Assembly: GCA_900088475.1 (NCBI GenBank)
Contig: FLMG01000094.1
Span: 21,922 to 61,530 of the forward strand
DNA length: 39,609 nt
Direction of reading: 5' to 3'
Source of the DNA: Hyphochytrium catenoides
Taxonomy: Eukaryota; Sar; Hyphochytriomycetes; Hyphochytriales; Hyphochytriaceae
The position numbers and the translations under genes are program-made. Shown here piece by piece: positions 921 through 30,700 of this stretch (positions within the stretch are counted from its first letter, which is position 1; every line of letters begins with the position of its first letter). The notes under the pieces were generated by a model. That model searched no databases, had not been told where the DNA came from, and was given only the letters and a program-made list of their open reading frames with translations.

Positions 921-3900
921 TCACCTTTCTCTCCTGAGCAGCACCAGCGTGCTATTCAACGCGTGTACCTCGCCTTCCAGGTCCCGAACTCTCCTAGTAA
1001 GCCGCTGCACTGCGCCATGACGGTCTCCTCCACCAGCCACTGCGCGTCCAGCCACATAGCTCGCCCTCAGGTCTCCTCCCCCTGCTGCCTTGGCGCCCAA
1101 TAGCCTTCGGTTCCGCCTCTGTGCCTCGCGTAGGCGAGACAGAGTGGCCGTGTTTCCATATCTTGCTTGGTTCGACTGAGAGAGCTCCAGGTTGTCCAGA
1201 AACAAGAGACACGCCGCCTTCACTAGATCTGCCCCCAGAAGGGCGAAAGAGAAGAGAACAGATCAAGGAGAACAGCAAAGGGTAAACGATGGGAGATGCC
1301 GTGAACGCCAGAGAGGGAAGAAGCTTACAACAAAGAATGCCACAAGGGATAAAGTGAAAGTTTATGAACTGGGACGGGACGTCCAATACATGCTTCTCCT
1401 GGTCCGGGCCACATGAGTGCAAAGAACATAGAGAAAGGAGCAAAGGCTTGGGAGAGCACGAAAAGAGTGGGACAGGAACAGAGAACAGAGAGACGGGGAA
1501 AGAGAAAATGTAGAGGTCACTGAGCCTAGCGCCCTTGACATCCCTTACCTCCAATAACAAACCAGAAGAGGCAATAGACCAAGACAAACAGCACCATTAG
1601 ACTGGACAAGTGCGGAGCAGGATGGAAGGGCCAAAAAACAGCGAATGCAGCGACAAGGAGCACACGAAGTGCAGTCACTCCTAACCCCAAGGCCCCAGGT
1701 CGTGGCGATAACATGAACAAACGCTCCTCCTTCGCAGAGTAGAAAGCTAAGGCGTCACTGACGCCAATCTGCAGGAACATTAGGTTGAAGATCTGCCTAT
1801 AGGCCAGCGGAGGAAGATGGAGCTGTCGAAAAGTGGACCGCGGATCATGCGAGGTTAACGCCCAGTGTAAGAGGAGTAGAGAAGAGACTACCAGAGAAGA
1901 AGAGAGAGAGAGAGAGGTCCATAATACTCTGCCAAAATCCCAAGTCTCTGGCCGTCTCCGGGCCCGGAACTTCTCTGCTGGCAGTCCCGAAGTAACGAAG
2001 AAGTGGAGTATGGTGACTATTATGAGAAACACTGTGGGCAAGCGGAAGGAGCTTGGAACCGGCTCTCCATGTCCTCCCTGGCTAGGACACATCCCGTTGA
2101 CAGGCATAAACCCAGGATATCTGCAGCTGTCCGGGCGGACAAAGACGGTACCAATGAAGACAAACAGCAGCAGGCGGAGACTGCAGGCCATCCTGTAGGT
2201 GATCGCACTGCGCATCCGCTGCACCACCTCCCGGGCAATTTTAATACCGCACACGAGAACAGAAAGGCCAGGCTTCGTCAGGACCACGTCAGCAGCACTT
2301 CTCGCTGCATCCACGGCCCCTTCCACTGCCACGCCAACAGTAGCCTTTCTAAGTAGTGGAATGTCACTGACAGACTCGCCTGTAGCCGATAACAAGCTGC
2401 CCCGGGACATCAGGACATCCGCAATGATTTGCTTCTGCTGAGGGTGGACTTGCGCGTAGGCATCAGCCGTCTCTAACACCTCCGCGTAGTTGCTGGTGAG
2501 AGCCAGCTCACTTGGGACGAGTTGGTAGCTCCCCGCGGGCTCATCCTCATGGTCAGGGGCAGGAAGAACAGGAAGAGCGTTGGCCCCAATGACTGTGCTT
2601 CCTAGTCCGAGCTCACGGCAGACGTTAAGCGCATTAGCAGCTGTATCACCCGTCACAATTTTCACGTCAATGCCATGTGCCAACGCGTCGGCCACCGTGT
2701 CCTTAGCGTCATGCCTAAGGTTGTCTTTGAATGCAATGAGCCCCAAGAAGACCCAGAATCCATCTGCCCTACCATGATGGTGTGCCTGTTCTGCTGCTCC
2801 TGGGCCCGGTAAATGAGGCTGATGGCTGTCACTTTCGGAGAAAGCAGTGCGCGCAACAGCTAAGGACCGTAACCCTCTGCTTGCCAGCTCTAAGCAAGTG
2901 CTTTCGACTGCAGGGCGCAGGTCAACCGCGTTATGTGCAAGCTCTAGAACGGCTAAGGGACAGCCTTTGGTGGTCCGGAAGATGGCGCCGTTGGAAGCCC
3001 TTAATATGGCCTCTGAACGCCGTCTCTCTGCAGTGAATGCCTGGTAGTCCAGCTGCTCGTATTGGTCTAGCGGCCTTAGATCAAGAGCGTTGAGACAAAG
3101 GACATCGATTGCATCTTTGGGAGGCTCTTTCCATTTTGACGCTAGCGCTGCCGCGACCAAGACGTCCTCTCTTGAGATATTCTGTGCAAAGACAGAGATT
3201 TCTGACTGCATCTCAAGCTTGTTTCGTGTCAGCATTCCCGTCTTCTCTGTGAGTAGAAGGTTCACTCGAGCTAAAGCCTCAATAGCGCTAAAGCTGGTCA
3301 CTACCACCTTCTCCTGGGCGAGCTGCTGAGATCCAATTCCAATGATAGTTTGGCAAGCCATTTGTAGGTTGATTGGGATACACGAGATGAGGATCACGGA
3401 GCAAATGATAGCTCCATGGGTAACAGAGTAGCCCTCAGCGAATAAGCGTCCTAGACAGAAGCCTAAGAGAAACAAAGACAATACGAAGAGGTAGAGGAGC
3501 ATTTGCATCACCACGGAGTGAGAAAGTCCTTTGTCTTCTAGCAAGTGAAGGCTCCGGACGCTCTGCCAGTAGAGAGTCCGAGAGCCTGTAGCCGTCACCA
3601 CCGCTTCTGTCTCCCCTTTAATGACGAATCCCCCTGCCCTGACTGCATCACCTGTGCGGACTCTGACTCGCATACTGGGCCCAGTTAGAGAGCTCTCATC
3701 CACCACGACCTCCTTAGGGCCCACAATCATGCAGTCAGCCATCACGGCTGCTCCTGAAGGCAGCGAGACCCGGTCTCCAGGAACCAAGAGTGATGACTTG
3801 ATTATCTGATAGACGCCATCGCGCTTAACTGATAAGGTTAACAAGAGGGCCAAACAATAGATTAAGCGATGAAAGAGCAACCAACCAATGGACAAGCCCA

Positions 3901-4568
3901 AAAGGTGAGGGACACAGGGAAAAACGAGTACTCGGACGGCCTACTTTTTTGAGGTTAACGGACTAACCTTTGGCCTCGGGCGTTAGAGAGGATCGGAGCA
4001 GATTTGAAGCGATAGAGAGACGATTGCCCTCATTCCAGTTTATTGTCGCGTTAATTGCTTGGAGGAGGAGTAGCGCCAGAGCATCGGCCCATCTTGATTC
4101 CAAGCAACTGAGGATGAACCCTAGCCAGACCAACAGAGCTAATGGCCTGGTGAACTCTATGGCATAACCCCGCTGTAAGGACGGCAAGCGGATAAGATTG
4201 AGGCTTTGATCGATCAGCGTCAAGCTGAAAGTTGACAGCCTACCAGTCCGACTCCAGAAGCATCATGGAGGTCATTGCTGCCATACACAGCAAGGCGTTT
4301 AGCTGCCTCAACGCTGGATAATCCATTGTCAGGGGTTGGTGGAAGGTTATAATCAGGACCTTCCACACCAAAGTCCTTACAGCCAAAGAGTTGTAAGACC
4401 AATCAGTCAAGCTATGAGGCAAAAGCACGATTATACCGATGAAGCGAAACTTACTTCTCCAAAGGTATAGGTCTGATGCTCGCGAATGCTCCCTGGTTGC
4501 TGGCCATTGCTGGAACGGGCAACTTCACTCCGTAAGAGAGACGTGTGCTCTTCTCCTTGCCTTGCCAT
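921..4568 (-). CDS. P3A-type (plasma-membrane H+-ATPase-like) P-type ATPase with degenerate catalytic motifs; probable pseudoenzyme
   Basis: Five exons on the minus strand (4568-4455, 4375-4244, 4172-3968, 3828-1549, 1228-921) join in phase to 1,012 residues, close to the usual size of fungal and plant proton pumps. The N-terminus has the EAAKRL..YG.N.L pattern of the cation-ATPase N domain. Actuator, P and N domains and hydrophobic segments follow in the usual order. The M4 stretch leading to IGIGSQQLAQ..V and the block before the phosphorylation site are P3A-like. The tail after GDLVKAA is charged and coiled-coil-like. Active pumps carry DKTGTLT, TGES and GDGVND; here these read EKTGMLT (Glu345 for the phosphorylated Asp), TGPS (Pro201) and GESVSD (residues 634-639). 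The LNDGT block of M6, which holds the proton-binding Asp in plant pumps, is not recognisable. ATP hydrolysis is therefore unlikely. I infer a regulatory or scaffold role, or early decay with the frame still open. Start ATG is at 4568; the gene diverges from BRX1. Confidence 0.85.
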
Positions 4569-5429: not shown

Positions 5430-6947
5430 ATGGTGGCCAAGCCTTCCAGCAAGAAGCGTGCGGCACCAGCAGCGAAAGAAGCTGTAAAAGTATCCGACGA
5501 AAAGAGAGCTAGGTTGGAGGATGGTGCGCCAGGGCAGCCAGACGCAGATCAAGAGATGGAAAACTTAGTTTATGATGGAACATACAAGAACAAACAGCGA
5601 GTGTTGGTCCTCTGCTCTCGGGGTATAGTCTCCCGCCATCGCCACTTTATGGAGGATATCAAACTTCTCTTGCCACATCATAAGAAGGAGAACAAGTTTG
5701 ACTCCAAGGGCACGCTCCAGGTTATCAACGACATAGCAGAGATGAAAGGATGTAATAACTGCATCTATCTGGAGACCAGAAAACGACAGGACCTGTACAT
5801 GTGGATCAGCCGCACGCCTAATGGTCCTTCTGCCAAATTCCGAGTCCTGAATGGTACGCCTAAAGTGATGTCTTACGTGAGAGCGTGCCTCAACCTTATC
5901 TTCTTTGCTCTCGCCTCACACTTGCCAGTGCATACGATGGATGAGCTCAAACTCACTGGGAATGCCATGAGAGGCTCTCGGCCTCTACTATCCTTTGACA
6001 CAGCCTTCGATAGCCAGCCCTATTTGAAGCTTATCAAAGGCATGTTTGTACAGGTAAAGCATAGATGATGGGCTGACACTTGGCTACTAGGGCCCTCGCT
6101 CATTCTCCTACCCTAGGTCTGGGGAACACCGCGGGGCCACCCTAAGAGCAAACCATTCATTGACAGAATGATGTCCTTCTGCTTTTTGGATAACAAGATC
6201 TGGGTTAGGAACTGGCAGGTGAGACGCATTCGCAGAGGCTTTCAGACAAGAAGAGCGAGGGGAGAGATACTGTTGGGAATCCTAGGCATGTGAGAGGATC
6301 AAGTCTCTTAACCCTGAGCAGAAGGAGCCAGGAGCGACAAGGAGTACATCAGCAACATCCTTCACTGCTGGCCAAAGATATATATTGTGGAGATGGGGAG
6401 ATAGGGGAGTCTCTGTGGATGCAGACTTAACTGTGCCAGAAAGTAATACTGCTGCTTCCTCTTCTCAGATCATTGATGAAGGGGGAAACAGAAAGGAGGA
6501 GCTGGTTGCGGCACACAAGGGCGAAGATCTTACACAGCTTGTAGAGATTGGGCCACGCTTCGTCCTGGACCCGATCAGAATTTTTGACGGCAGCTTTGGC
6601 GGTGCAACGCTGTATCAAAGCCCAAGCTATGTGTCTCCTAATGAGGTTAGTCTGCTTTGAGCTTTTACTTGGTGCTTCCTGCTTTCTTCTTTTTTTTTGA
6701 CTTGAGACCATCAACAAGCTGTGTTCCCTCTCATCGTTATTCATGAACTTCCGTCTGTTTTTCTTTGGCGGACCTATCATGGGGCATGTCACTGATATTG
6801 TGGTGGCTGCAGTTGCGACGAGAGCAGCACACAAAGCATCACAACAAGTATGCGAACAGAGTGGCAGCCAGACAAGCCGCCCAGCAGCGGAAGGCTGAGA
6901 ATGTTATGCCTAAGGATGAGCTAGAGGATGTATTTAAAGCTGAATAG
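5430..6947 (+). CDS. BRX1: Ribosome biogenesis protein BRX1 (Brix domain)
   Basis: Five exons (5430-5853, 5929-6053, 6117-6218, 6469-6645, 6813-6947), all with GT-AG borders, join into one 320-residue frame. BRX1 is a nucleolar factor needed to assemble the large ribosomal subunit; its Brix domain binds pre-rRNA with partner assembly factors. Family landmarks appear in order: NKQRVLVLCSRGI near residue 50, LLPHHKKENKFD, KKRQDLYMW-like and GPSAKF blocks, KLTGN..RGSRPLLSFD, HPKSKPFIDRM.SFC.LDNKIW.RN.Q, VEIGPRFVL.PIRIFDGSFGG, then a basic tail. The N-terminus is lysine-rich, as expected of a nucleolar protein. Length is slightly below the human protein (about 350). The first in-frame ATG is 5430, just after a GTG that would only add two residues. 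Assignment is firm because every exon matches the family and the phases agree. Confidence 0.95.
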
Positions 6948-9209: not shown

Positions 9210-10894
9210 ATGCTAGCTGCAGGAGCGGCGGATGGAGAGGAGGAGGGCCAAGAGGTGATGAAGAGTACGGCTCACGACACGGTGGCCCAGATCTTTATTG
9301 CGACACACGTGATCCTCACCTTGGTCATTACTTTGACATTTATTCTAAGGCGTAGCCTCTACCCTATGAACGTGATGCCGATCCACTGGTTGGTCTTTGC
9401 ACACATCAGCACGCCCATAGGATCCTTTGCCTTCCTTAGCAACTCCTTCGACTATCCGTGCAAACCCTTCATTACCTTCAAGTTGCACTTGGGAGGCTTC
9501 TTCCCAGCCCTGCCATCATTGCTGTCCCAGTGCTTCATCCTCTACTATACTCATCGTCATCAAGAGAAGCAAGTTCTCCTTAACGCTGATAACAACAAGA
9601 AGATGGGATTTTCTGGGCGAAGAAGAAGAGCATTTGCGCTGCTGCCGGATTGGGTCTCGTATAAGGCAAAGAGGGAGATCTACGCATGGATCACCTTCAT
9701 CTTGGTCACGTTGGTTATATTGCCGCAAGGAGTCCTTGTCCTTGTGGCTTACCAGGAGGCTCAAAGGCCGGAGACTCCGGACTCGGATCTTCTCTTTGAG
9801 TTGAAGACATGCACTGCCACAGCAGGCTATGTGGTATGTGATAGTAGTAGTGTCAGACTCTTTGCTCCCTTGCTCAATCTCTGTTCTGTTTTCCGTGAGA
9901 GATACATAGTTTGACCTCTTGTCGCTGGTATAATAGGTCTTATACAGGCCAGTCGCCACAGTCGCTCTTGGCCCATTGGTCGTGTTGACCTATTCGAGTT
10001 AAGGAGGCATTTGACATGAAGAAGCACTTTATGTTGTGCATCATATACACGCTCGTGGTGGCTCTTCCGCTACAAGCTGTAGACATTGTCCTAACAGGAT
10101 CAGCCGCTTCAACTTGGTTTCATCCTTTCTATCTCTTCATGTACTCTCTGGTCTATGTCATGTACGAGATCAACTGCGGCATCCTGCCTATCAGAACGTC
10201 TTTCATAGAGGCGAATCGGAGGTTGAAAGAGAGCTCACGACGTCCCTCTCGCTCGATCATTAGAAGTCCAAAGGTGCATTCTACGGTGGAGCTGAGGTCG
10301 ATATTGACGGCAAACTGCCCTGGTGTCAACGAGCGGTTCCAGGACTATCTGATAAAGGAGTTCTGCGTAAGATCCCTTCGAAGACCTCTCTTCTCTTCTG
10401 AGACTTTGTTCCTTCGCCACTGAGGTTGTCTTACGAGCCCTATTCTCGCCCTTTTGCTACGACGTACTATATATGTTGATTAGGTTGAGAATCTCCTGTT
10501 TTTCAAGGCAGTCATGGCGTACCGCATATCAAGTGATGGAACAGCGATGTTGGCCTCTGCGAAGAATATTGCTCAACAGTTCTTGACGCCAGCAGGCGCA
10601 TCTAGGGAGGTGAATATAAGCAGTGAGATGCGGATCAGAATTGTGAACGCGCTGGGCCAGCTAACGCCGACAACTGTGGAGATGGACTTCTTTGTGAAGG
10701 TGGAGCAGGAGGTCCTCTCTATGATGTTGGACCCCTTCAACCGCTTTCTCAGTACGGAAGGGATTCTCATACCTTTGGAGGCCTACGGGTCTAGTGCCCT
10801 GGCTGGGAAGAATGATGATCAGAGCAAGTCCGCTGTCAAGGGCAGCCCCACGAATCATAAGGATGATGACGTCGTGATGCCCTACTCAGGCTGA
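9210..10894 (+). CDS. Seven-transmembrane protein with C-terminal RGS domain (apparent frame slip in TM5)
   Basis: This resembles the 7TM-RGS proteins of plants, fungi and protists, in which a receptor-like membrane domain is fused to a domain that speeds GTP hydrolysis by heterotrimeric G-alpha. Exon 1 (9210-9833) encodes TM1-TM4, with four clear hydrophobic segments, then a loop ending ATAGYV. A second exon begins after an AG at 9936 and encodes a hydrophobic TM5-like segment (VATVALGPLVVLTYS). Its frame is one base out from the following EAFDMKKHF and TM6-TM7. The exon ends at 10366 with YLIKEFC and splices to 10484-10894 (VENLLFFKAV), which restores the RGS signature FCVENLLFF across the junction. 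MDFFVKVEQEV..ML completes the RGS fold. Total length is about 480 residues. First in-frame ATG is 9210, with a stop upstream. The role is inferred from family. Confidence 0.8.
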
Positions 10895-13299: not shown

Positions 13300-16205
13300 A
13301 TGAAGCGGCAAGAAGACTTCCTTCGGCCACCGTCTACTGATGGTCGGCTAGCAATAATTGTTCTCACTACGAGCTTCCTTTCGATAGCCCAGCTGCTACA
13401 GGGTTGCCAAAGCTCAGGAGCTGGCTCAGGATTGGAGGAGGTACAGCCCAAGCAATGCTTCTGCCAGCCTTGGCAGCCCTGCTGGCCCATCCCAGCCGAC
13501 TGGCGCCGCCTAGCAGAGGCTGTGGGCCAAGAGAATCTGCTTGAGCTGGAGCCCTACGGCCAACCTTGCTATCAGTCCGGACAGGCAGCAAAGTGCGAGG
13601 ATCTTCGCAACCGCAGTTCGGACATTGACTATCGCATCAGGTGCTTTTCCTACAGCTGGTCGCTCCTTTGTCTTCAGTGACGGACTATATTGCCAATTAT
13701 ATCTAACGGCCACCGGTCGCGCCTACCACGACCTGCGCCTTCCCAACGATAGCTTGCACCCCAGTCACTCTCTTCCTCGTTCTCTTTTTTCCTGATTCTG
13801 TGTGTGTCTCTGTCTCTGTACGACAGCGCCTTTCGCGCCTCCATTGTTATCATATTCACCTCTTTCTTTTGGATCTCCAGCGTCACTCCGTTTCTCTCCC
13901 ACCTGTTGATCATCATCAGCCTGTGTTTGCTCACACATGTGCCCAGCCTGCCAGGTGCCTATGTGCAGGCTGTTTGGGAGTGGGATGGGCCACGTGCCTG
14001 TCCACCCTTTGGAAACTTGACGGGCCGGACATGCGAGCAAGGTGCTGTCCCCTTGCGTGCCGTTGTCGCTCACAATCCAAGGCACGTCCAGGAGGCAGTT
14101 CGCTTCTCGAGTAGGCACAGCATCCGGCTTGTAGTGAAGAACACTGGGCATGACTTCCTCGGCCGTTCAGCGGGAGCTAACACGCTGATGGTTAGCGGCA
14201 AATTGTCTTCTTCTTGGGTTGAGCGCCATGTCTCTTTGGTCGTCTGTCTTTGGCCTCCCTCTTCATGGCTGTCTAGTGAGGGATCTTTCTTGACTCTGAT
14301 GAACACGTGTCCCTCTTTGCTATCTCCTTCTCTGTGCGCTACCAGTCACGATTCTGCCTCTGCCTACATAGGTCTGGACCCACAATATGAAGTCAATTAT
14401 CTTTGACGAGCACTTCAGGCTTGAGACCTGCCCAGGCTTCACCGCTCAGGCAGAGGAACCGATTTTCGCTGTCAAGGTTGGGGCCGGGAGCCAGTGGTTT
14501 GAAGTCTATCAGGCTGCGCACAAGCGCGGACGAGTGGTCGTAGGCGGCGCAGGTAGGTGTATGAAGGCATTGACTAGTGACTCACTCATCATCAGCCTAG
14601 CAAGGCTAACGTCTCTCATTCTTTTTTTCCTCTTCCCATCTTTTCTTCTCCAACGAATGCTCTGAAACCCCATTCCTCTCTGCTCGCTGGTGCGGCCGAT
14701 GGGCTTATAGGTCGTACGGTAGGAGCAAGTGGTGGCTATGTAAGTTCTTTCTTGGATTCTCATGGCTGGCGTTCCAGAAAATAGTCCCTCTTTCACTTCC
14801 GGTTGTCTCCTTCTTCTTCCCAGTCTTCACCGCTTTCCTAGTTTCCATCTTTCTACCTCTCGGTGCATGGTCGTCCTCTCTCAGTCTTGACTTCTTCCGC
14901 AGCGTAGCCGCTCTTCACGTCTGACAATCTGATCTTTCTTGGTTTAGGTCTTGGGCGGTGGGCACAGCCCTCTGGGTCCACGCTTTGGGCTGGCCGTAGA
15001 TCAAGTCCTAGAGTTCCAGGTTGTCACGGCGGACGGGACGTTGCTTCGTGTGAATAGATGTCACCATGGAGACTTATTCTGGGCCCTTAGGGGCGGCGGT
15101 GCAGGTATAATCTTGAAAGGAGGGACAAGGACAAGAGGAAATGTTAGCAAGGCAGCGAGCTGGGAGCCTGAGCGATCCTGGAACAGAAGGGTTAGGAAAA
15201 GAGGATATGCACCCATAGTCAGCATAAGGGATAGAATGGCAGAGACATTATGTTGATTCGGACTAATGGAGCAAAAGGAGGAGGAGAAAGTGAAGCAGCT
15301 CATTGACTTGAAGACTCTTTCTAGGCTTTGGCATCATCATAGAGACAACTTTCCGGACCTTTCCCATGATCTCAATGTCGGCAGTCTCCCTTGTCGTGGA
15401 CATGAAGGGCAATACCCAGAGTTGGACACAGTTCCTGGCCCGGTTTGCGGCTCAGCAGCCTTCATTGACAGAGAAAGAGGTAGGATCGTACTTCACTCTT
15501 CATGGGACGAGCGGGCAGTTCTCTTTCTTTGCTGCCGACCTAGAGCTTCACCTGTTAGAGCAGCTTGTCGGCAACTTTTCGGACCCATCCACATACATTG
15601 GAGCGGAGATTCAACGCCAGGCAACGAACGCGGATACCTTTCTAGATTGGTACACCAACGCTGTACCTCCTGATGAGGGAGGTGCCGCCTTTCTACTGGG
15701 CTCCCGGCTTGTTACTCGAGCTTTCATCAGCAGTGAGCCTGCCAAAGTTGGCTCCGTCCTGGCAGAGCTGTCTCTCTCTGCAGCAGTTCCTCGGCCATGC
15801 TCGTTTTGTGTCGGGCAGGTGGTGGGTGCTATTGTCTCAGGGATCGGAGGGAACCAGACATCCCCAGAACGTCGAAAGGCCGTATCGGCTCATCCTGTCT
15901 GGCGCAAAGCTGGGATGCACATCATGTACGGTCAACTTCTAGGCCTTAATGAGGTTGACGCTGTAACTCGGTTTCCAGCTGTGGCTGGCATCGTGGGGGA
16001 GATGGTCCAGGTGCTCGATCGTATAGGGGAGAAAGGTGCTCAGTACGTCAATGAGGGATATCCTTTTGAAGAGGAATGGCAGAGCAGCTTCTGGGGAGAG
16101 AACTACCCTCGACTCTTAGAGATCAAGCGGGCGGTCGACCCCACTGGCTTATTCTCCTGCCATCCTTGCGTGGGCAGTGAGTTTGGAAGAGAGAGCTGCA
16201 GGTAG
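13300..16205 (+). CDS. Secreted FAD-linked oxidase (VAO/PCMH family with C-terminal BBE segment)
   Basis: Six exons (13300-13640, 13947-14190, 14372-14552, 14711-14739, 14948-15104, 15325-16205) join in phase to 610 residues, the usual size of fungal secreted FAD-linked oxidases. The enzymes oxidise small organic substrates and pass electrons from FAD to O2. An N-terminal hydrophobic segment (about residues 21-36) reads as a signal peptide. The Cys-rich [14 protein letters not shown] block follows, as in fungal homologues. The FAD domain contains [13 protein letters not shown], where His182 is the expected covalent flavin attachment site. Then come [27 protein letters not shown] and LRGGGAGFGII, the last rebuilt exactly by splicing. 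The C-terminus carries the BBE signature [26 protein letters not shown]. The Cys used by doubly linked flavin oxidases is not seen in TVGASGGY. The substrate is unknown. A fungal-type gene in a protist could reflect transfer. Confidence 0.92.
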
Positions 16206-18791: not shown

Positions 18792-21700
18792 CTGAGCGCA
18801 AAGGATACAGTCAGATGGCCCTCTATCATCAAATGACCCTTAAGCAGTTTTGCGTACCTGCGACTCCAAAGCCTTCATTCTATCAAGTGTTATCGCGGCT
18901 CCGTTGTTGTTATTGTCTGAAGCTTCCCATGTGGCATCCACTAAAGCTTCAAGATGTTTTAACTTCACATCGGTGCAGATACAGTGGGCAAGCTGACGGA
19001 GCTTATATCCCAAAGTCCATGAGCTCTCTGTGTCCTTAACATCTAAGAATTCAATGCATCGCTGGACTCGGAGGTTCAGACAGCGGAGCAAGGCGAAGCG
19101 AATGTGAAGACAGGGGAGGGGTAGCTCTATGAGAAGAGAACAACGAAGCTCGTCCAATTGAGGGACAAGGCGTATATCTGTGGGTTTCAGCTCCGTTGAG
19201 GCCTGTGTGAGGGGAAGACAAGAGTAAGATCCTGGCGCTTGGGAACTTCTCAGGCGGAAAGGTAGGTAACTAGGGAGAAGACGTGCTGCAGGTTCCCTTA
19301 ACAGACGGCGCAGGGTACACTGACGGGACTGGTATCAGGTAGATAGCCACATTCCCTCCTTACCGTGGAGCTAGTTTCCGCCTTGGCGTTGACCCACTCC
19401 ATGAACTGCATGTCCATCGGGACAGTCCACTTGCTCATCTCTGACAGTACTGCCAATCCTTCCTCCTTGGAAAATTTCCTGAGCTTGGCTTCATCGCTAG
19501 CCCCCAGTTCTGTAATAGTAAAGGCAAAGCCCCAAAGTCCATCGGCATTGTTAGCCTCCATGTCTACACTGAACTCATAGGATACCGAGCCCCCATTGAC
19601 ATCGATCACCCCTAAAGGCCAGCTCTCCGCAGATACTCCGTTTTCGCCCTCCTTTGCATGAACGGAGAGGATCTCATTGCCGTCTGGTCCTCGAACCACT
19701 AACGAGCAGCGGGTGCCTAAAGCGGAGCGGGGCTCAAACCTCAGGCGCAAGCCCGTACTTCCCTCGCTTCCCTTGTAGGACCCGTGCTTACTCTCCCCCG
19801 CAACGTACGGATGGTGGCTCTCCACGATCCCTACGCCACCGCGAGCATCAAGCCACGCTTCGTTGATAAAGCGGTCAGGAAGCTGGATAATGGAATGAAA
19901 CGCGTCCAGAAGATCAACGACATCCTGGAGGACTTGGGCCAAGGGCAGATCAGCCACCTTTATAGGCACAGAGATCGTTGTGCTAGAGAGAGTGTCTACT
20001 TCCGTCTTCATTTCCTCCTCTTCTTTCATCTCTCGCTCACCAGCCTGCGTAGCACCATTGTTGCTAGAGGCATCATGGCTGATGTACTTTATTCTTCTAG
20101 GACCGTCCTCAAAGACGTCAGCAGCTCGGTTAACCGCCATCGACATCTCCAAAAGCTCCAGAAGACGGCGAGGGAGGATGACCGTCGAAGCGGCCNNNNN
20201 NNNNNNNNNNNNNNNNNNNNNNNNNNNNNNNNNNNNNNNNNNNNNNNNNNCCTAGATAACAGAAAAATGCAATGCTGATGACGATATGTGGCCGCTAGCT
20301 CTGGAGGACTTCTGTCCAAGAACACTATTGGCTGTCACAATTCTGAGGACCCACCGAAGCGGCATCAAAGACAAGCGCTGCAATATGCTTCAATGAGGTC
20401 AGCCGCGGGCGCTGCTTTTTGGGGAAGTGGTCGGCCTGACGCAGGAGCTGCGCCAGAAGAGAGATAACTCTGTTCTTATACGGGGCCCCTGGCGACCGCA
20501 GATAACGTACCAGCGCGTCACAAACCTATATGAACAGATTGACCAAAGCGTTAGCACTGACTGTTTAGCTGCTCAAGCGTCCAATACTGGTTGAATGTTG
20601 TCACGAGGCTGGCGAAGCCAGGACTAATGGACGCCCGGGGAGCGGTCATAGCTCTCTAGGTACTTTCTCTTTCCACTATCTTCTTCCTCCTCACGTATCA
20701 CACCCTTTCGCTGCCTTTCAGTCCCCAGCTCTTTAAGTTTCCAGCGTTGGCGCGTTCCCTCATTCGTATCCGTTCTCTTACCATTTTGTTGTGTACTGCT
20801 CCCTCCTTAACCAGCTTGTTCGCGTCATTGAGGAGGAAGTCCAGGACCCAGCAGGCCCATTCAAGGCTGGGAGAGGACAGCACTTCTTCTTCTGAGGTCC
20901 ACTTGATGCTGCTCATTGGCCGCACATAAAACCGGAAGCCCCATCCATATTCTCCTTCTGTCGACTCCTCGCTGGCACTAAACCTACCAAGGCACAGGAT
21001 AAGAGGGATCAAAAGTGAGCAACAGAGGGACAATCCAAAGTACTTCGACCACCGTAGCCCTGGGCAGGCGGGACATCAAGGAGAGAGCAGACATAGCAGA
21101 GAACCAGACCCGAAGATAATGAGGCGAAGAGAGGGGGGACAGTGGAGGTAGCACGATAGGGTGGAGGCCGTGGCGTCCTTGCTTACCTGAACCAGAACTT
21201 GTTAAGGTGGATGACGGTGGGCCTAAAGACAGCACTTTCGCCTGTGAAAGTGGTTATGGCCTTCGTCATCTCACTATCACTATAGAAAGTAAGGGATGCT
21301 TTAGGACCCAGCTTACACCGAGAGTCGAACGTCACACGAAGAGCAGTAGCCTCTCCGCCGTTCTCCTCTTTATGCCTCTTGACCTCACCCTTGTAGTTGC
21401 AACGAGGAAAGTAAGGGTGGAGAGACTCAAAGACTTCTGTCTCAGTCTCCGCATCCGCCACCTTCGTAGATGCCAAAAAATGTGATACACATTCCTTCAC
21501 TAGAATGCGTGAGAGAAGCTTGCTCTCCTCTGAATTCTCAAGCATCGCGTCTTGAATTGGAGGTAAAGCCGTGGATCGTTCCTTCTTCTTGCTCTTGACT
21601 CCCGTACTTTGAGAGGCATGGCCCAGCGGGCTAGGATGTTGAGCGCCAGGAACGGCAGGTGCCGAAGGAGGAGTAACCGAAGATGGCGTTGAAGCAGGAG

Positions 21701-24700
21701 GAAGAGGCACTCCTTCCATTGATAGAGCGATTGCCCTTGCTAAGTCGTCGTCCGCATCCTCTCCCAACCAAGCAGCCACATCAAGCTCAGAGAGAGCAAT
21801 GGAGCGATCCAGATGAGGCTCAGATGGCACAGGGACGTGTGCTTCTCCTACCGATTGCTCTTGTGCCTCTTTAAGGAGAGAAGAGGTTGGTGAAATATCC
21901 CCCGCGTCCTTGCTTTCCTCCTCATGGTCGTCGTCTGACTCTGCTTCTTCCATCGTTCTCTCGGTGCTCTCATCCTCGCTGTGCAAGGCTTCCTCTCTTA
22001 AGATTTGGAGCATCTTATTTCTGAGCAGCTCCATGAGAGAAGACGAAGATGATGGAGCTTTTGCTCCTGCGAAATCAAAAACTTCAGATTGAGGAGAAGC
22101 GAGGTAATCTTTTGAGAGAGACTGAGGAAGTTGAGACGACGAGCTTGACGATGCTTTTCCGCCTCGTCTCTCCTTGAACACGTTCTCGGATGCCGCCAAC
22201 AGCTTTACCAAGTCGACAAGCCGATGAGGGCCACCGAAGACTTCGGCAGAAAAACGTGGCAGAGATATCTCCTGCGCATGATCTTTCGCAACCTCCATCT
22301 TTTCGTCTTCTGAGCTTTTAGGCCAAGCCGAGAGTAGTGCCACAAGCGCTCTTCTAGCGTAGTGAGATCCTAGGGCGGCCTCGGTCGCGTACATCAACCG
22401 CCTAATGCCCCCAGACCCATCGAGAGGCTCCTCGTAAAGCCGAGTAAAGCGTCTTACGCAGTCCGGAGAGAAAACGTATTCCTCTGAAAAGCCATTCTCA
22501 ATGTTGAGAATCCGTAGTCGAACGGAAGACGGAGTAGACAGCACCAAGGCTCCTGTTCTACCGGATAGTGGCATTCTCTCCACTGGTCCCATCTCTTCGC
22601 TGACAGTCAATAGAATGCCCTCAGGAAGGTACCCTTCCTCCAGCGGAGCAGGATGTCCAGGACTTGTCTCTGCTACTATTGGCGCCAGATGCACCTCTGC
22701 CTCTCCTCCCGCAGTCTCGCTTCCACTTCCACTACGTCGCTCTCTCCTTTCTTCTCCGGCACCGTCTTCGTCACTCTCTGTGAAGAGCTGCTCGGCAGCT
22801 TGGGCCTGCACATCCTCTAAGGCGGCAAGATCAGACAGTTCGCACCCTTCTTCTTTCCAGTCTTGATCCTTGGTGCTGGAGAGAGATGACAGATATCGTC
22901 TGCCAGAGTCCATTAGCCAGCCCATGGACTGATTCGGATCGTCTCCAAACATCTCTAAAGCTTTAAGAACTAGATCGTGAGGCATCCCAGAGATCCCTCC
23001 AAGTTCCAGCGCCAGATCCTCTCGTGTGCCGCCGCCTCCAGCCCCGGACGCAGTACTTACGGGCTGGTAGAGAGTGGCACGAACGACATCCGCCTCTGCG
23101 CTCGTAAGCCAATCGATAGCCCCTGTGAGGTCATCTCTGTTTCTCTCTAAAGCGACCATGCAAAGCTCGACCTCAAAGCCCATCGCAGCCAAGTCGCCAG
23201 CCATTTGTCTCCTCTGGCGCTGTTGTTCCGTCTCTTCTTGAGGCGGTTCCTCTACTTGCTGTACTTGGGCAGCCCCATCTCTCGCCACCTCTTCTCCTGC
23301 AGCGTCGACGACTGCCTTAGGAGGTGAGAGAGCCTTGAACATTAGCTCACCAGCAGGGGATGAGGATACTTCCAGCAGTCGCGCTTGTAGAACGCGGCTC
23401 CTTTCTTGAAGATGTCTCAGAGCTACAAAGGAAGAAAGCCGGACTGGTAGCATAGCCACCTGGCACAGCGCCTTCAGCAGTTCTCCGACTCTAAGCGCTA
23501 CCTTGGCAGAGCTGTCTTGTGCTAGAATGCGCTGTAAAGACAGCAGTGAGCGGGACTTTATCTGTGCTAGCCATAGCATTTGGTCCTGGATAATGCTGTC
23601 CGACTGACGGGACGGAAGGTCCGGGATAGCCAGGAAGGCAATGAAGAGTTGAATGAACTCTGGCGACAGATAAAGAGAGGGCGGAGCCTGGGATTCCACT
23701 GGAGAGAGAGAAGAGAGGCCTACTTGTTGCACGTTATGCGTGGGATCCGCGGCAGAGTCATACAGAGCATCAAAGAGAACCAGCCCGGCAGGTTTGTCCG
23801 GAACAAACTCTATAAGAGTTGCACGGGTAAGGCCATCCCGCTCTTCAGAGGATACTTCTACAGTACCACCTACTCGCAAACAATCTGCATACCCACCTAG
23901 AACAGCCAACGCAGCATTAGCGCGGGACAGCGTAGCCCTCTGTAGGAGAGAATAGGCCTTTCCATTATCCACTCCCTCCATAGGTCTGGTCATCTCCCGG
24001 ACGAGGGGTGCCCCGTTCCTTAGTGCTACAGCTAGAACAGCCATGACCTGATGAGACCATTGTTTCTCACGACTGAGCTTTCTTAATAAAGCGACACTCT
24101 CGGCAGCTAGTGCTTGGGCAACGTAACCGCTTCTGAAGCCTGAAAGTGCAGAAAGCGTGTCTGAGGCAGAGGGCAGAGAAGAAGGAAGAGAGCTGCCTGT
24201 CACTCCTTGACCTTGGCCCTCTTTACTGAACAACACAGCGGTCGATGAGTCCACCCAGAGCGCATCCGAGATTCGATCCACTAGCAGATCCAACAGGGAG
24301 GAGTCTGAGCCTAGGATACTGGCCACAGAGCGTGGGTCTAGGACGTTAGAGAGCGAACCTAATAGGCCTAACACCAGCCTTTGCATCCGAGGGGAGCCCA
24401 GCCTTAGAAGAATAAAGAGATGACGAAGGAGAGCAACGCGAGAGAGATGGCTTCTTCCTCCAGCCGTATCTCTCAGAGAGTAAAGGAAAAGTAGATGCCT
24501 GAAGAGGATGCTCTCTAGCTCCACCGGCTCTAGTGGGTGGCTGGTACCTACAGTGTTAGGAAGACGACCAGACACGGCAGGGGTAGAGAGAGATCGAAGC
24601 ATTGGAGGCCTTTGAGCCCTCAGCAGTCCCTCTGCCTCCTGTAGGATGTTAGCACCAAGGTCAAGTTCTTTCTCCAATAGCTCCAGAGCCTTTCGCTGGA

Positions 24701-27700
24701 GCTCCATGGTGAACCAGAGTGCCTGGGCACCTTTCTCTCCTCCAGCTGAAGCGCTCATGGCTGCGTCCTGAGCGGCTGCCGATGCTGCTTCGGCCTTCGT
24801 TTTCTCTTCTTCTACCGCTGGGTTTACAGTCTCCGGAGGTGCTTCACCTCCAATTTGCTGCTTAAGATCGCTTTCTCTTTCTCTCGCCTTCTGCCTTCTC
24901 TTTCTCTTTGCCGCTGCAGCAGCGGAAACAGTCTCTGTTTCTCTCCTGCTCCCCATGTTTCCACTCATCGCGATTGTTGTAATCAGCTGGAACACTGTAG
25001 CAGCGCACGTTCTCAGCTGGAGAAGCTGGTAACGATGATCTTTCGTCCACTTCTCAGCCTGAGAGATAAATATTTTCAGGCCCACAGGCTCGTGATGCCC
25101 GACGGCTCCTCCGCCTCCTCCAAGCTGGCCAATAGGGCTTCCAGAAACTTCTTTTTCTCTGTCATAATCGTCCGTATACTCTTCTTCCTCTCCCTCCTCC
25201 AAACTCGTGGCACCCGCAAGCTTTGCTTCCTTCTCAAACATAGACTTTGATCCTCGCTGGCCTATTTGTTTCCATCGGTGCCACTGACGGAACCAGCGTT
25301 GAAGGCGAGAGAGGGAAGTCAGAAAGACTTCCCAACTGAAACCTATTCGCAGTTGCCCTTCAAACAGTGGAGGCCTCTCGTTTCTCCATAAGCAATCTGT
25401 TAGAGTCGCATGACGAGGTGCCTCCTCCAAACGCGAGCTATTTAGCGTCGTAGAGGCATCGTGGAGACGATTGCCCTGTCCCTCAGAGACAGGCCAAAGG
25501 CCAATTAGATGGGACAGAGTTCTGCTGTCTGCATGGCTCCTGCCCGTAAGAATCAGCCTTCTGTACATGTTTTCGTCCAAGTCAGACGGAGAGAGGGATT
25601 GATCCCAAAGCCGTATCTCAGAGAGGAACCCAGTAAAGCCATGAACAGCTGGCTTAGAGGGCTGATTGGGCGCAAAGCTACCACCGAATCGACTTTGTCG
25701 AAGATGAATAATAGGCGTTGTGGACTTGAAGGAAACACTTTCTCTCGCGTGACGAGAAGGACAGAGATGGTCTGTCACATAGAGCGTTGCAGACTTTAGT
25801 GTCGCTGAATACGACACAGCAAGATGCGCCCACTGATGAGGAAGAAGAGAGAGATTGAATCGCGTGTGATGGGGCTCGTTTCCCTTGATAGACAGCTGGA
25901 CTTGACCGTCGACGAGGAAGAGAGAGACACTGCCAAGCCCATTCTCCCTCTCAGTTCTGATGGCCTGAGTACCTGTTACGGACTCGGGACAGAGCCACAT
26001 CTCCATGGTAAACTCTGTCAACTCTCCTATTTGTCCGATCTCCATGTAGCTATTCTGAGTGGCATCTAGATATAGAGAGTGACTCTTTCCCTGGGGGTGG
26101 TGCAAGGGGGATGCAGCAACCGAAGGGCTAGAGAGCAGTTGTCTCCCTTGCATGCTCTTCCTGAACTGTCCGTAGAGTACGACCAGAGCGGATGCGGTAA
26201 GGCTCGAAAGCACTTGCCTCCCTCGCCCCTGAAGGCCATGGGCTTGGTACCAAGACCGGGGTAAAGCCTTCTGAGGAGCACACAGCATGTGCCGAAGGAG
26301 TTCTGCAGAATGCACGAGAAGCGACAGTGCCATTAAATGATGAGCTTATAGAACAGACAGACCAAAGATACAAAGACAACAAGACAACTTTGAAAGAAGC
26401 GTCATCGTTCATCTCGATGATTAATCGCTACCTACCTCTCTTGGGGAAGCTGCCAGCCTTCACATTTGCCGCTATGTAGTCTTCAACGTATGGCTGCCAC
26501 TGCGATGCAAGTTCGTACCGCTCTGAATCTGAAATCCTCACTTTCAAAACAGAAGCGGGGCTTGCTGTCCCTTCTGCTCGTGGTAGGAAAGAGGTTGGTG
26601 GCTCCAAGGCGGGTCTCCGAGGCAGACTGATAACCGACAGAGGAGCCCTAGATAGCCGAGGCGCCTTCCTAGGCAGTCTTAGCTCAGACAAGGGCGATAC
26701 AGAGCCTTCTTTGGGTTCCTGAGCTTCAACCTCAGTTCCTCCCATCAACGCGTCAATTGACGCAATCACTTGAGTCGCCTCTGCGGAGAGAGAAGAGAGG
26801 GAGATGAGGCTCTGGAGAGAGGGAAGGATTCCTGATCTTAGGATGAATTCGTGGTCTTGAGCTTCGAAATCCAAAGCCCAGGCACAAAGAAGAGCTCGCG
26901 TGAGTCCGGAGTCCAACACAGTCTCGGAGCGTTGAATCATTTCGGCCAAATCGCCATAAAGGGCGGTGAAGGACTTACGGACCGCGTAAAGAAGGTGTTT
27001 GGGGCACCCTTCCAGATGCTTGAGATGATGGTGACGGAGTGTTGGTCGGAAGCCCCCTGCAACATGCACTCCTCCCTCACCTTCTCTTGCTTCTTTCTCC
27101 CCTTCTGTGAAGCCCCTAAGAGCTGGTCGGAGGAAAAGGAGCGTGTCATGCTTGGCCGAGTCGAAGGAAATGGAGGAAAGAAGAGCCTGCATGGCATAGA
27201 AACCATAAATCCTGCTCTCCGCCCTCCTCCGTCTCCTCTCCATCAGTTTTCTCAGAATATGCGGAGGAGCTCCCGCTCCGTTCTTGATATACAAGCCGCA
27301 TGCCTTGACGACCGCAAGCCAGCCTTCTTCTTCCCCAGACGGTGTCTCCCTTTCCTGTGCCGCTTCCACAGCCTTAACGCTCTGCAGATCAGAGTTGCTA
27401 TTGTTCCTCCACAGGTGTTGGGCACGTAAGACGCCTATAACACCTTGCCAGCGGGAAGAATCTTCCTCAGACACCGTCTGCCACCTTTCTTGCATTGGCT
27501 GAAGCATGTTTGGGCCTTGGCTTTGGTCAGCCCAAAGACGAGCCATCTGAGAGAGAAGAAGGGATGATTTTCTCATGTCGCTGGTAGGAGGCGCGAGGGT
27601 GCAGATAAACTTTGCCCTAGCGAATAAGTGGTCCTCCAGCTCCTGGAAGGAGGCAGGGAGCTGCAAATGCTTGAAAGATGGAGGCGAATCTTCCTCTTTG

Positions 27701-30700
27701 CCACCATCCAGGGAGAAAGACGCAGCATCTCCATCCAACGCATAAGCAGACGAGGAGCCGGTGAAGACGGGGCTTGAGGTGAGAATGACACGAAGTGGAT
27801 CCTCCTTTTCTTTCTCGTCGGCAGTCTCACCGCTTTTCGTCTCTTCCTCTCCTCCTTTGGTCTCCTCGCCGCCTTGGTCTTCCCCGTCATTGGCCGTCTT
27901 ACTTTCCTCTCCTCCTTCTCCTTGCTCTTTTGCCCTAAAGCCTTGACGGCACTTTATTAGCCAGTGACGAACTTCCAACACAGCGTTCCAAACAGAAAGA
28001 ACGGCAGATGAGTGGGCAGGATCTATCTCGGTCTCGTCTGCCGTTTCGGCGTGTGTCATCAAGTAGAGGGAAAGCTCCTCTGGCAGGTAGCGTGCCAGGG
28101 CGGCCAGGTAGATTCTCTCAGAGCGTGGAAAAGCACCCAGCAGCCTTAACACAGATCTATCTGGCCATTGACCTGACATCCACGATATCAATACAGCAGC
28201 GGGACCGCTATCCGATAAATCTTCAGATAGTGAAGACAAAAAGCGCTGGAGTTCCTTGGACATCGACGAGTCTCTCTCCTTATTTCTCTCTCCTCTCTCC
28301 TCTTCTTCCTTAAAGGACGCCCCGCTGACCATAGACAGAGTCAAAGAAGAGCCACCGAGAGTGGACAGACCACTCTTGCTAGATATCCTATCCAGCACAG
28401 GCTTGACTCTCTGTTTCTCTTCATTGTACTTTCTGACCCATTCCGAGGATAGTTGGCGCCCTTCCTCTGCATGCGCCTTCATACCTCCCGAAAGGAGAGA
28501 TGACTGCAACCAGGGGGCCAGCTCTTCCTCATCATCGTCTGCGGGTGTTCCAGCGATCATAGTAGCAGCAAGTCTTCCTCCAAGTGAAGCCAAGGTCTTC
28601 TCGAGGTCTAGCAGCCAGTGCAAGTCCATGGTACTCCCTGCGAAGCCGCCGGGTCTTACTCGAACGGCATCGTTCTCAGAGAGGAGAGAGAAGCCTGGAT
28701 GGATTGCACCAGGGAGCCAGTGGTTTAGAGCCGGTATTCGTCCATCTGGAAGAAAAGAAGATGCGCTGATTGCCACCCCAAGATCTGATCCATTGTAGGA
28801 GAAGGAGAGAGATGACCGATCCAGATCTAGGGTCATTCCTATCACTGCTCCGGTCGCAAGGTCAGGTATAGCCTTATATTGAGAGGCATAAGGCCGCCCA
28901 TTCCATAGCAAAGTGCCTGTCTCTACTACCCAGCCTAGGGAGTGCACAGAATCGCCGAGACGATAGCGGCCACTGGAGCAAGTGGTCCCGTACTGGCTAA
29001 GGACCCCCAGCACTAGGTGCCCTGCGGCGTTGCGAATGATCTGAAACTCCAGATCGTGGACCCCAGAGGCGAACGAGTTCTTTGTGATAGCTGTGGCCCA
29101 GACCTGGCAGAATAAAGCAGCTTAGCTCTAATATAATTAGAGTAAGCGGCGTGTAAGGAGGACGCTTGGGGTCAAAGGACAAGAAAGGAGAAAGGGATCA
29201 CGTAGAATCTCAAAGTAAGAAAAAACGGACGCAGGCAAAGAATGTCAGCGCAAATAAGGTGGCCCGACTCTAGCAGAGCTTAACCTGCGCGGGCTGGATG
29301 CCGCCACTAACCTGTGAGCTGCCGTTGACGGTAGCGCAGGAACCTTCATGAGAAAGAGCAACGTTTGGGCTTTTCCATTCCTCAGAGAGTCTGAGATCGG
29401 GGACGCCATATGAAGGGGCGGAGGTAGAGGGAAGAAGGCTCGCACCCTCACTATCGACATAGAACGTTGGAACGCCGTAGGGAGCCTTGTGCAGGTTCTG
29501 GTTGTTTGGATAAGATGTGGATCCTCCTGAGATGTAGCAGTCTCGAAGTATGCTAATCAGTTCTTTATCGTACTCTTCGTCCGGACGGTCTTCCTTTTTG
29601 TACCAAGGGTCGCCCGACTGGGAGTACTCGTGTGATGTGAGGCTGGAGCGGAGTTGTGTCGTGAGAAGATCAGGATCACAGCCATAGACTTCTACTTGTC
29701 AGTAGCACTTACCGGTATCTCTTGCCCGCAATGATCTGCACGGGCTTAGTGAGGCGACAGTAGGCGTATCCAAGGTGATCCTTCTTGCTATGCCCACTGA
29801 CTGCCGTCTCTGCTATAAGACTTTGTGTCTGTTCATCCCAGAGCCGGATCTTATGGGATTTTAGCAGTACGCCGTTATTATACCTACCAGGACGAAAAGC
29901 AGGAACCGTGAGTAAGGTGGGGACAAGAGAGGCCCAGCAACGTAGTGAAGAGAAAGGGGAAAAAGGAGGAGGCCATCAGCGCGAATATAACTCATCTAGG
30001 CATATAATAGCCCCAGGATAAAAGCAAGAAAACACAAGCCCGCCATGAACGTAGAAGAGGGCGGTCTATAAAGGAACAGGTGCGAGAGAGATGGGGTTAT
30101 GTTCGCTATGAATGCTGTTCGGCAGAAAGACACAAAGCCTTCACATTCGTTCTCGTGAGCCGCATTCGCCCAGCTTGCCGAATTACTTACTGAGGATTGA
30201 CTGATCTTCCAAGGCCCGAGATACTGAAGGAAGAGTTGGCCTCAAACTGGAAGCCAATTTGACCGTCAAAGTGGTCTTTGTCCCCAGTGTAGAGCCGGCG
30301 GAAGACATTCTGAACCTTCCGCTGCTCGCTCGAACCTTCAACTTCCACACACTCAGCAGAAGCCTCAAACTTGCAGAGACGAGTCTCCGTCGCACGAACC
30401 TGCGATACAAATAAAGGTTAACCTCTCCTTTTTGGCGTTGAATGTCTCTCTCAGTCCTTTTATTTCATACACCTGCCGCTAACTTGTTCAAGACCTATCG
30501 CCATGGTCGGTGTGAACTCCAATCATCCCGTACACACATTCGTCTATCTTTTAAAAAGTTACATAACTTGCCCATTATCGCACTGCTGCTCGTAACTTAA
30601 GACTGCCGCTTGTGGAGATGTGAGGTTCCCTTCAGCAGCACTCGACCGCCTGGCGTCTCACTTACCTCAGCAAGCTGGCAGTTCAGAGTGTCTAGGCTTT

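Follow-up and report, generated by a model that had tools for sequence, protein, structure and literature searches.

The stretch of DNA analysed here, hereafter the window, is 39,609 nucleotides long and comes from Hyphochytrium catenoides (contig FLMG01000094.1, positions 21,922 to 61,530). On its minus strand, from 4568 to 921, lies a gene whose five exons join in phase and encode a P3A-type ATPase of 1,012 residues with no internal stop codon (the window protein). The original prediction had placed five exons in one frame here; its coordinates and the length of the product were confirmed, as were EKTG at residue 345, TGPS at 199 and GESVSD at 634. P-type ATPases possess strictly conserved catalytic motifs, and pseudoenzymes are well known among kinases. 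To our knowledge, pseudoenzymes have been little discussed among P-type ATPases. In the open-licence literature of PubMed Central (PMC), none of the papers listed in our searches describes a P3A pseudo-pump in its title or the beginning of its abstract.

Gene structure and catalytic motifs of the window protein

The features of the gene are as follows. Splice sites were predicted from GT/AG borders, phase and alignment with homologues.

4455..4568, minus strand: exon 1; start codon and N-terminal tail with an acidic dileucine motif; donor GTAAGT at 4454; phase 0
4533..4550, minus strand: acidic dileucine motif EHTSLL, residues 7-12; matches [DE]xxxL[LI] inside the first 20 residues
4244..4375, minus strand: exon 2; N-terminal cation-ATPase region, aligned to the P3A N-terminus; phase 0
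3968..4172, minus strand: exon 3; M1-M2, from alignment; ends in phase 1
1549..3828, minus strand: exon 4; A domain to M10; 759 complete codons
3674..3685, minus strand: TGPS (TGES in intact pumps), residues 199-202, from alignment; Glu201 to Pro201
3236..3247, minus strand: EKTG (DKTG in intact pumps), residues 345-348, from alignment; phospho-Asp345 to Glu345
2957..2968, minus strand: KGCP (KGAP in intact pumps), residues 438-441, nucleotide-binding; Lys438 retained
2714..2725, minus strand: DNLR (DPPR in intact pumps), residues 519-522, from alignment
2645..2653, minus strand: TGD, residues 543-545, retained
2363..2380, minus strand: GESVSD (GDGVND in intact pumps), residues 634-639; second Asp (Asp639) retained
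1997..2008, minus strand: LHFF in M6 (LNDG in intact pumps), residues 758-761; proton-binding Asp gone
921..1228, minus strand: exon 5; C-terminal tail, ASYVAGRAV block and stop codon, from phase and alignment to clade B tails

The start codon in exon 1 is the first ATG downstream of in-frame stops, and the introns are 79, 71, 139 and 320 bases long. By its sequence and by a modelled fold with A, P and N domains and helices M1-M10, the window protein is a P3A ATPase by descent. The fold of exon 4 was modelled with confidence; its closest structural matches are the P3A plasma-membrane H+-ATPases Pma1 of yeast and AHA2 of Arabidopsis, which have the same sequence type, domain order and modelled fold. 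Judging from this exon 4 model, the window protein still folds as a P3A ATPase. Unlike in Pma1 and AHA2, the phosphorylated Asp, the Glu of TGES, the first Asp of GDGVND (which we take to be residue 634 of Pma1) and the Asp of M6 are replaced.

Motif residues were counted in an alignment that contained, besides the window protein, 12 intact and five damaged members of clade B and, as outgroup, nine intact proteins. Clade A is the main branch of oomycete pumps, and clade B is a second oomycete P3A branch of approximately 965 residues; both names were coined in this analysis. Of the 37 motif columns without variation across the 12 intact members of clade B, 25 are conserved in the window protein and 36 or 37 in each outgroup protein. 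The substitutions (window numbering) are Glu201Pro, Asp345Glu, Thr349Met, Ala440Cys, Pro520Asn, Pro521Leu, Asp635Glu, Gly636Ser, Asn638Ser, Ala640Ile and, in M6, Asn759His and Asp760Phe. Residues retained include Thr199, Gly200, Lys346, Thr347, Gly348, Lys438, Gly439, Pro441, Asp519, Arg522, TGD at 543-545, Lys616 of the P domain, Gly634 and Asp639. When Gly761 is counted, 13 motif residues are altered, all in exon 4, and these alterations require at least 21 base changes with the frame unbroken. The claim that all core catalytic motifs are lost thus goes too far: the phosphorylated Asp, the Glu of TGES, the first Asp of GDGVND and the Asp of M6 have disappeared, but 25 motif columns are kept. 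The M6 block, which was said to be absent, proved to be present as a helix (model residues 598-612 of exon 4); ILHFF is aligned against ILNDG, and Phe760 stands at the position of the proton-binding Asp. In M4, the window protein reads IPINLQ. Because the intact clade B proteins read IPIAMQ, the absence of the last Pro of M4 is ancestral.

Among 332 aligned database proteins, with gapped rows set aside, only the window protein has a residue other than Asp at the phosphorylation column. The states of M6 were taken from the smaller alignment; the M6 column of the 332-protein alignment is gap-ridden, and its flag on P0287 stems from misalignment. A preferential loss of catalytic columns was considered and rejected: 25/37 motif columns are kept versus 259/542 of the other invariant columns (p = 0.026). 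When the outgroups also help to define invariance, the proportions are about equal (24/35 versus 108/186, p = 0.27).

Altogether, the window protein keeps 284 of the 579 columns invariant in intact clade B. By region, with domain borders set by us, it keeps 43/61 in the N domain, 15/25 in the N-tail, 13/21 in the C-tail, 38/73 in the A domain, 17/36 and 62/121 in the two P-domain parts, 15/44 in M1-M2, 23/62 in M3-M4 and 58/136 in M5-M10. The N domain exceeds the rest of the protein (43/61 versus 241/518, p = 0.0004), and an excess is also found in the five damaged relatives (p from 0.0024 to 4e-8). Thus, by these column counts, the nucleotide-binding domain and the two tails are the best-kept parts. 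Since the membrane helices are poorly retained, a role that needs the transport path is less likely.

Clade B and the intact pump of the same genome

The best database matches of the window protein are clade B proteins, with 38-40% identity (best 120 of 394 matches). Among the matches listed, the closest relatives are the proteins of Peronospora effusa (P0005), Globisporangium polare (P0006) and Albugo laibachii (P0011). The window protein shares with intact clade B the insert between M5 and M6, the N-terminal dileucine motif and the C-terminal block; unlike the window protein, these three proteins evolve slowly and have their motifs intact. Within clade B, Peronospora, Phytophthora cactorum and Globisporangium (Peronosporales) and also Albugo possess intact motifs. 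P0013 and P0016, which have gaps in motif columns and perhaps wrong gene models, were excluded from the intact set. In the trees, the window protein lies on the oomycete side of the clade B branch (support 100/98 against ten outgroup rows), its position within the branch is unsettled, and its end branch measures 2.2-2.9 changes per column.

A motif of the form [DE]xxxL[LI] within the first 20 residues is present in 12/12 intact and 8/8 damaged clade B proteins and in 0/37 clade A proteins. Seven further clade B rows possess it in five cases; the two without it (P0014 and P0244) have a short N-terminus or a different start. The totals are 25 of 27 for clade B, counting EHTSLL of the window protein, and 0 of 37 for clade A; they include related rows, which do not count as independent. 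For the yeast vacuole, AP-3 sorting is described as often mediated by such dileucine motifs, and a Pro before LL marks several cargoes (PMC4649669). With this motif, clade B proteins may be destined for the vacuole or some other endomembrane.

Several other clade B proteins are damaged. The protein of Pythium insidiosum (P0025) reads AGES, ADSVSDIS and, in M6, LHG, and retains DKTG. Where intact pumps have GDGVND, Saprolegnia (P0242) reads GNDVQD and Achlya (P0017) GDDVQD. In four Aphanomyces species (P0023, P0034, P0036 and P0040), TGET and DKTGS are found and the GDGVND loop is shortened. Like the window protein, these seven proteins belong to clade B, have an altered GDGVND region and retain the dileucine motif; unlike it, all seven keep DKTG. 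Of the five damaged proteins available at full length, only P0025 has also lost the M6 Asp. Damage is thus not confined to the window protein: several members of this oomycete P3A branch, which is marked by a sorting-type motif of its own, are affected. Some of these damaged proteins carry the source name plasma membrane ATPase. From their sequences, it is doubtful that all of these database proteins with an altered GDGVND are working pumps.

The readings GESVSDIP and ADSVSDIS, and LH in M6 of both proteins, look alike, and an ancient dead paralogue common to the window protein and P. insidiosum was therefore tried as a candidate. It was rejected, as shared changes are at background. In 21 intact proteins, 246 columns are invariant; at these, the window protein and P. 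insidiosum share 7 of 56 doubly changed residues (12%), and the window protein shares 12-20% with the four saprolegnian proteins. When invariance is defined by the 12 intact members of clade B alone, the values are 34/178 (19%) with P. insidiosum versus 18-22% with the saprolegnian proteins. The saprolegnian damaged proteins share 41-75% of derived residues among themselves. In a quick tree, P. insidiosum, the saprolegnian proteins and the window protein formed one group, with 98 in the Shimodaira-Hasegawa-like approximate likelihood-ratio test (SH-aLRT), and the program warned of long branches meeting. The approximately unbiased test rejected neither the pair of the window protein and P. insidiosum (p = 0.255), nor a group of all six damaged proteins (p = 0.404), nor a crown without the window protein (p = 0.782). 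Because derived residues are shared with the window protein at background level, two to three independent damage events are the simpler reading. On this reading, damage to clade B in other oomycetes appears independent of that in the window protein. A common origin of the damaged proteins is not shown by these sequences but is compatible with the tree tests.

Evolutionary rates were compared as identity of clade A versus clade B for each pair of organisms; for Globisporangium and Peronospora, the clade A and clade B proteins come from different species. Intact pairs gave about equal values (A/B, 89/87%, 83/83% and 85/85%). In contrast, clade B diverged faster than clade A in all ten pairs with a damaged member. 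The pairs of the window organism gave 74/41, 74/41, 70/40 and 73/39%, with 74% (A) and 41% (B) against Globisporangium; those of P. insidiosum gave 88/49 and 85/48%. Achlya versus Saprolegnia gave 95/74%, and the two Aphanomyces 91/68%; against Globisporangium, Saprolegnia gave 82/55% and Aphanomyces 81/51%. Evolution is accelerated in all five damaged relatives compared at full length.

We then asked the genome for other P3A genes. The assembly is a draft of 42.5 Mb in 1,105 contigs; it was searched with two different queries, and the best candidates were scored. Two strong P3A matches were found, the window gene and an intact gene on another contig (C145) that encodes 1,066 residues. A second, catalytically intact P3A gene, which the original prediction had proposed to look for, is therefore present. 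The next matches score far lower (59.6 bits with one query, 108.7 bits with the other), and we assign them provisionally to other P-type classes. This two-query search did not reveal another clade B copy. The intact pump occupies one open frame (locus L002, 1078-4278) for which an intron is not needed, and it has a long insert between M7 and M8. Owing to this insert, the pairwise alignment with the window protein is unreliable beyond M7 and was kept out of the counts. Among the best 120 of 7,999 matches, the intact pump is 84% identical to one sequence; its identity is 62-66% with most of the full-length named oomycete proteins, 56-60% with a few of them and 76% with a partial protein of Aphanomyces. 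In a tree of 39 proteins, this pump and three sequences lie outside the group of all named oomycetes included (supports 100/99 on both sides). By the pump tree alone, an early-diverging oomycete or a near relative is indicated; a pattern for the conserved 3' end of rRNA had no match. CT/TC-rich microsatellite stretches adjoin both P3A genes (300-920 in the window and 394-780 in locus L002).

Proposed function and rival explanations

Loss of pumping in the window protein is well supported and very likely. Taking the sequence together with established P3A chemistry, the protein should be unable to form an aspartyl-phosphate, and the dephosphorylating Glu, one Asp of the Mg site and the proton-binding Asp of M6 are gone; because of these losses, protons would not be pumped. 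Asp730 of Pma1 is described as the proton carrier in M6 (PMC8575881).

Whether the frame is under constraint was examined by neutral simulation, which starts from the present coding sequence, leaves out insertions and deletions and cannot date the loss. At 70% identity, the mean number of stops was 12.8 and 0/100 runs were stop-free; likewise, 0/100 runs were stop-free at 80, 60, 50 and 40% identity, and 1/100 at 90%. By the rates, constraint on the window gene is relaxed or changed; by these simulated frames, it is not gone. As expected of a pseudoenzyme, the gene has lost catalytic residues while its frame is open and under constraint, the constraint being taken from simulation and not from the ratio of nonsynonymous to synonymous changes. 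A kept non-catalytic function is probable.

How could such a protein be tolerated? In PMC3692421, D378E and D634N of yeast Pma1 are listed as dominant lethal, and such alleles are described as misfolding and trapping the wild type. A dead P3A ATPase would have to stay foldable and apart from the live pump. Sorting by the dileucine motif to the vacuole or another endomembrane might keep the dead protein from poisoning the intact pump. A precedent is found in petunia: PH1, a P-ATPase without known transport of its own, is reported to bind the tonoplast P3A pump PH5 and to promote its activity (PMC6391481). PH1 (P3B) and PH5 (P3A) at the tonoplast may serve as a model for the window protein, with the differences that the window protein is itself P3A and that its partner is only proposed, whereas that of PH1 is known. 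Since a separate sorting signal would segregate a dead P3A ATPase, and given the PH1/PH5 precedent and the well-kept N domain and tails, we tentatively propose that the window protein is most likely a non-pumping, possibly nucleotide-binding, partner or scaffold on an endomembrane. A degenerate ATPase domain has also been described in guanylyl cyclase beta of Plasmodium (PMC6592433); it differs in being of the P4 class, fused to a cyclase and found in alveolates. For guanylyl cyclase alpha, parasites with the Asp of the related domain replaced are reported not to have been selectable (PMC7858053).

We give a probability of roughly 0.5 to the reading that the window protein is a catalytically dead clade B P3A ATPase that does not pump, probably resides on an endomembrane and is kept for a non-catalytic role. 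A pseudo-pump kept for another role had been predicted; the open full-length frame, the expected inability to pump and the breaking of simulated frames agree with this, and the role as regulator, scaffold or dominant partner is what we infer. More tentatively, clade B may have been made non-pumping at least twice and probably three times, with the window protein as the most complete case, a nucleotide-responsive partner or scaffold on a vacuolar or endosomal membrane. Clade B, with intact as well as repeatedly damaged members within one group, would be a natural experiment on the roles of pumps apart from pumping and on how a live subunit escapes the poisoning by a dead one that is seen in yeast.

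Several observations weigh against a kept role or against parts of it. Motif columns are kept at least as well as other columns, so the active site was not simply abandoned. The excess of the N domain is also significant in 4/9 intact outgroup proteins (p = 0.0014-0.028; 0.1-0.88 in the other five). The dileucine motif occurs in 13/248 other rows that start with Met, and the residue before LL is Ser in the window protein and Pro in most clade B proteins. EKTG, TGPS and GESVSD were expected to recur in orthologues; damaged relatives do exist, but their changes differ, and no orthologue with the same dead motifs, nor any close orthologue, was found among the matches listed (best 120 of 394, top identity 40%). 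Moreover, the fast evolution of the window protein, with its long end branch, also fits slow decay. In such a decay, clade B would be dispensable in this organism, selection relaxed and the frame not yet broken, with no non-catalytic role. The strong acceleration over the intact branch, seen also in the other damaged lineages, the lack of an orthologue in the same state among those matches and the poorly retained transmembrane columns all agree with it. We nevertheless consider slow decay the less likely reading. If the motif columns (25/37 kept) had diverged neutrally with the rest since the loss, approximately 13 stops would be expected, and none of 100 simulations at 70% was stop-free; the splice phases, the dileucine motif, the N domain and the C-tail block are all retained. 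In addition, damaged copies can persist, because the shortened GDGVND loop is common to four Aphanomyces species, two of which show 68% identity when compared at full length.

A protein with altered activity, in which Glu345 is phosphorylated, another solute is moved or an ATP-gated channel is formed, is favoured by the retention of TGD, Lys438, Asp519, Arg522, Lys616 and Asp639 and by a fold modelled with confidence. Yet the same Asp to Glu change in Pma1 (D378E) is listed as dominant lethal, with changes there said to misfold (PMC3692421), the TGES Glu and the M6 Asp are lost as well, and Asp stands at the phosphorylation column in every other ungapped protein of the 332. Activity of this kind is thus improbable. 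An error of sequencing or assembly, or a wrong gene model, is hardly credible, even though the splice sites were predicted without transcripts and the draft genome is in 1,105 contigs. The original prediction had also argued against sequencing error, and the base count bears this out: with 13 motif residues of exon 4 needing 21 or more base changes in an intact frame, such an error is very unlikely. Eight P-type regions on eight other contigs of the same assembly, that of the intact pump included, keep DKTGT, and 6/8 show GDGVND in the stretch fetched.

Neighbouring genes and other features of the window

Divergently upstream of the pseudo-pump gene, at 5433-6050 on the plus strand, lies a match to the Brix domain (BRX1-like ribosome biogenesis factor) within the first part of a gene. 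Further domain matches are RGS (10484-10894, plus strand), the C-terminal domain of berberine bridge enzyme (BBE; 15312-16205, plus strand) and NPCBM (32580-33122, minus strand). An open frame of 1,720 residues with a Laminin_G_3 and a UIM match occupies 21183-26345 on the minus strand. It is followed at 26428-29121 by a frame of 897 residues with a weak SPRY match.

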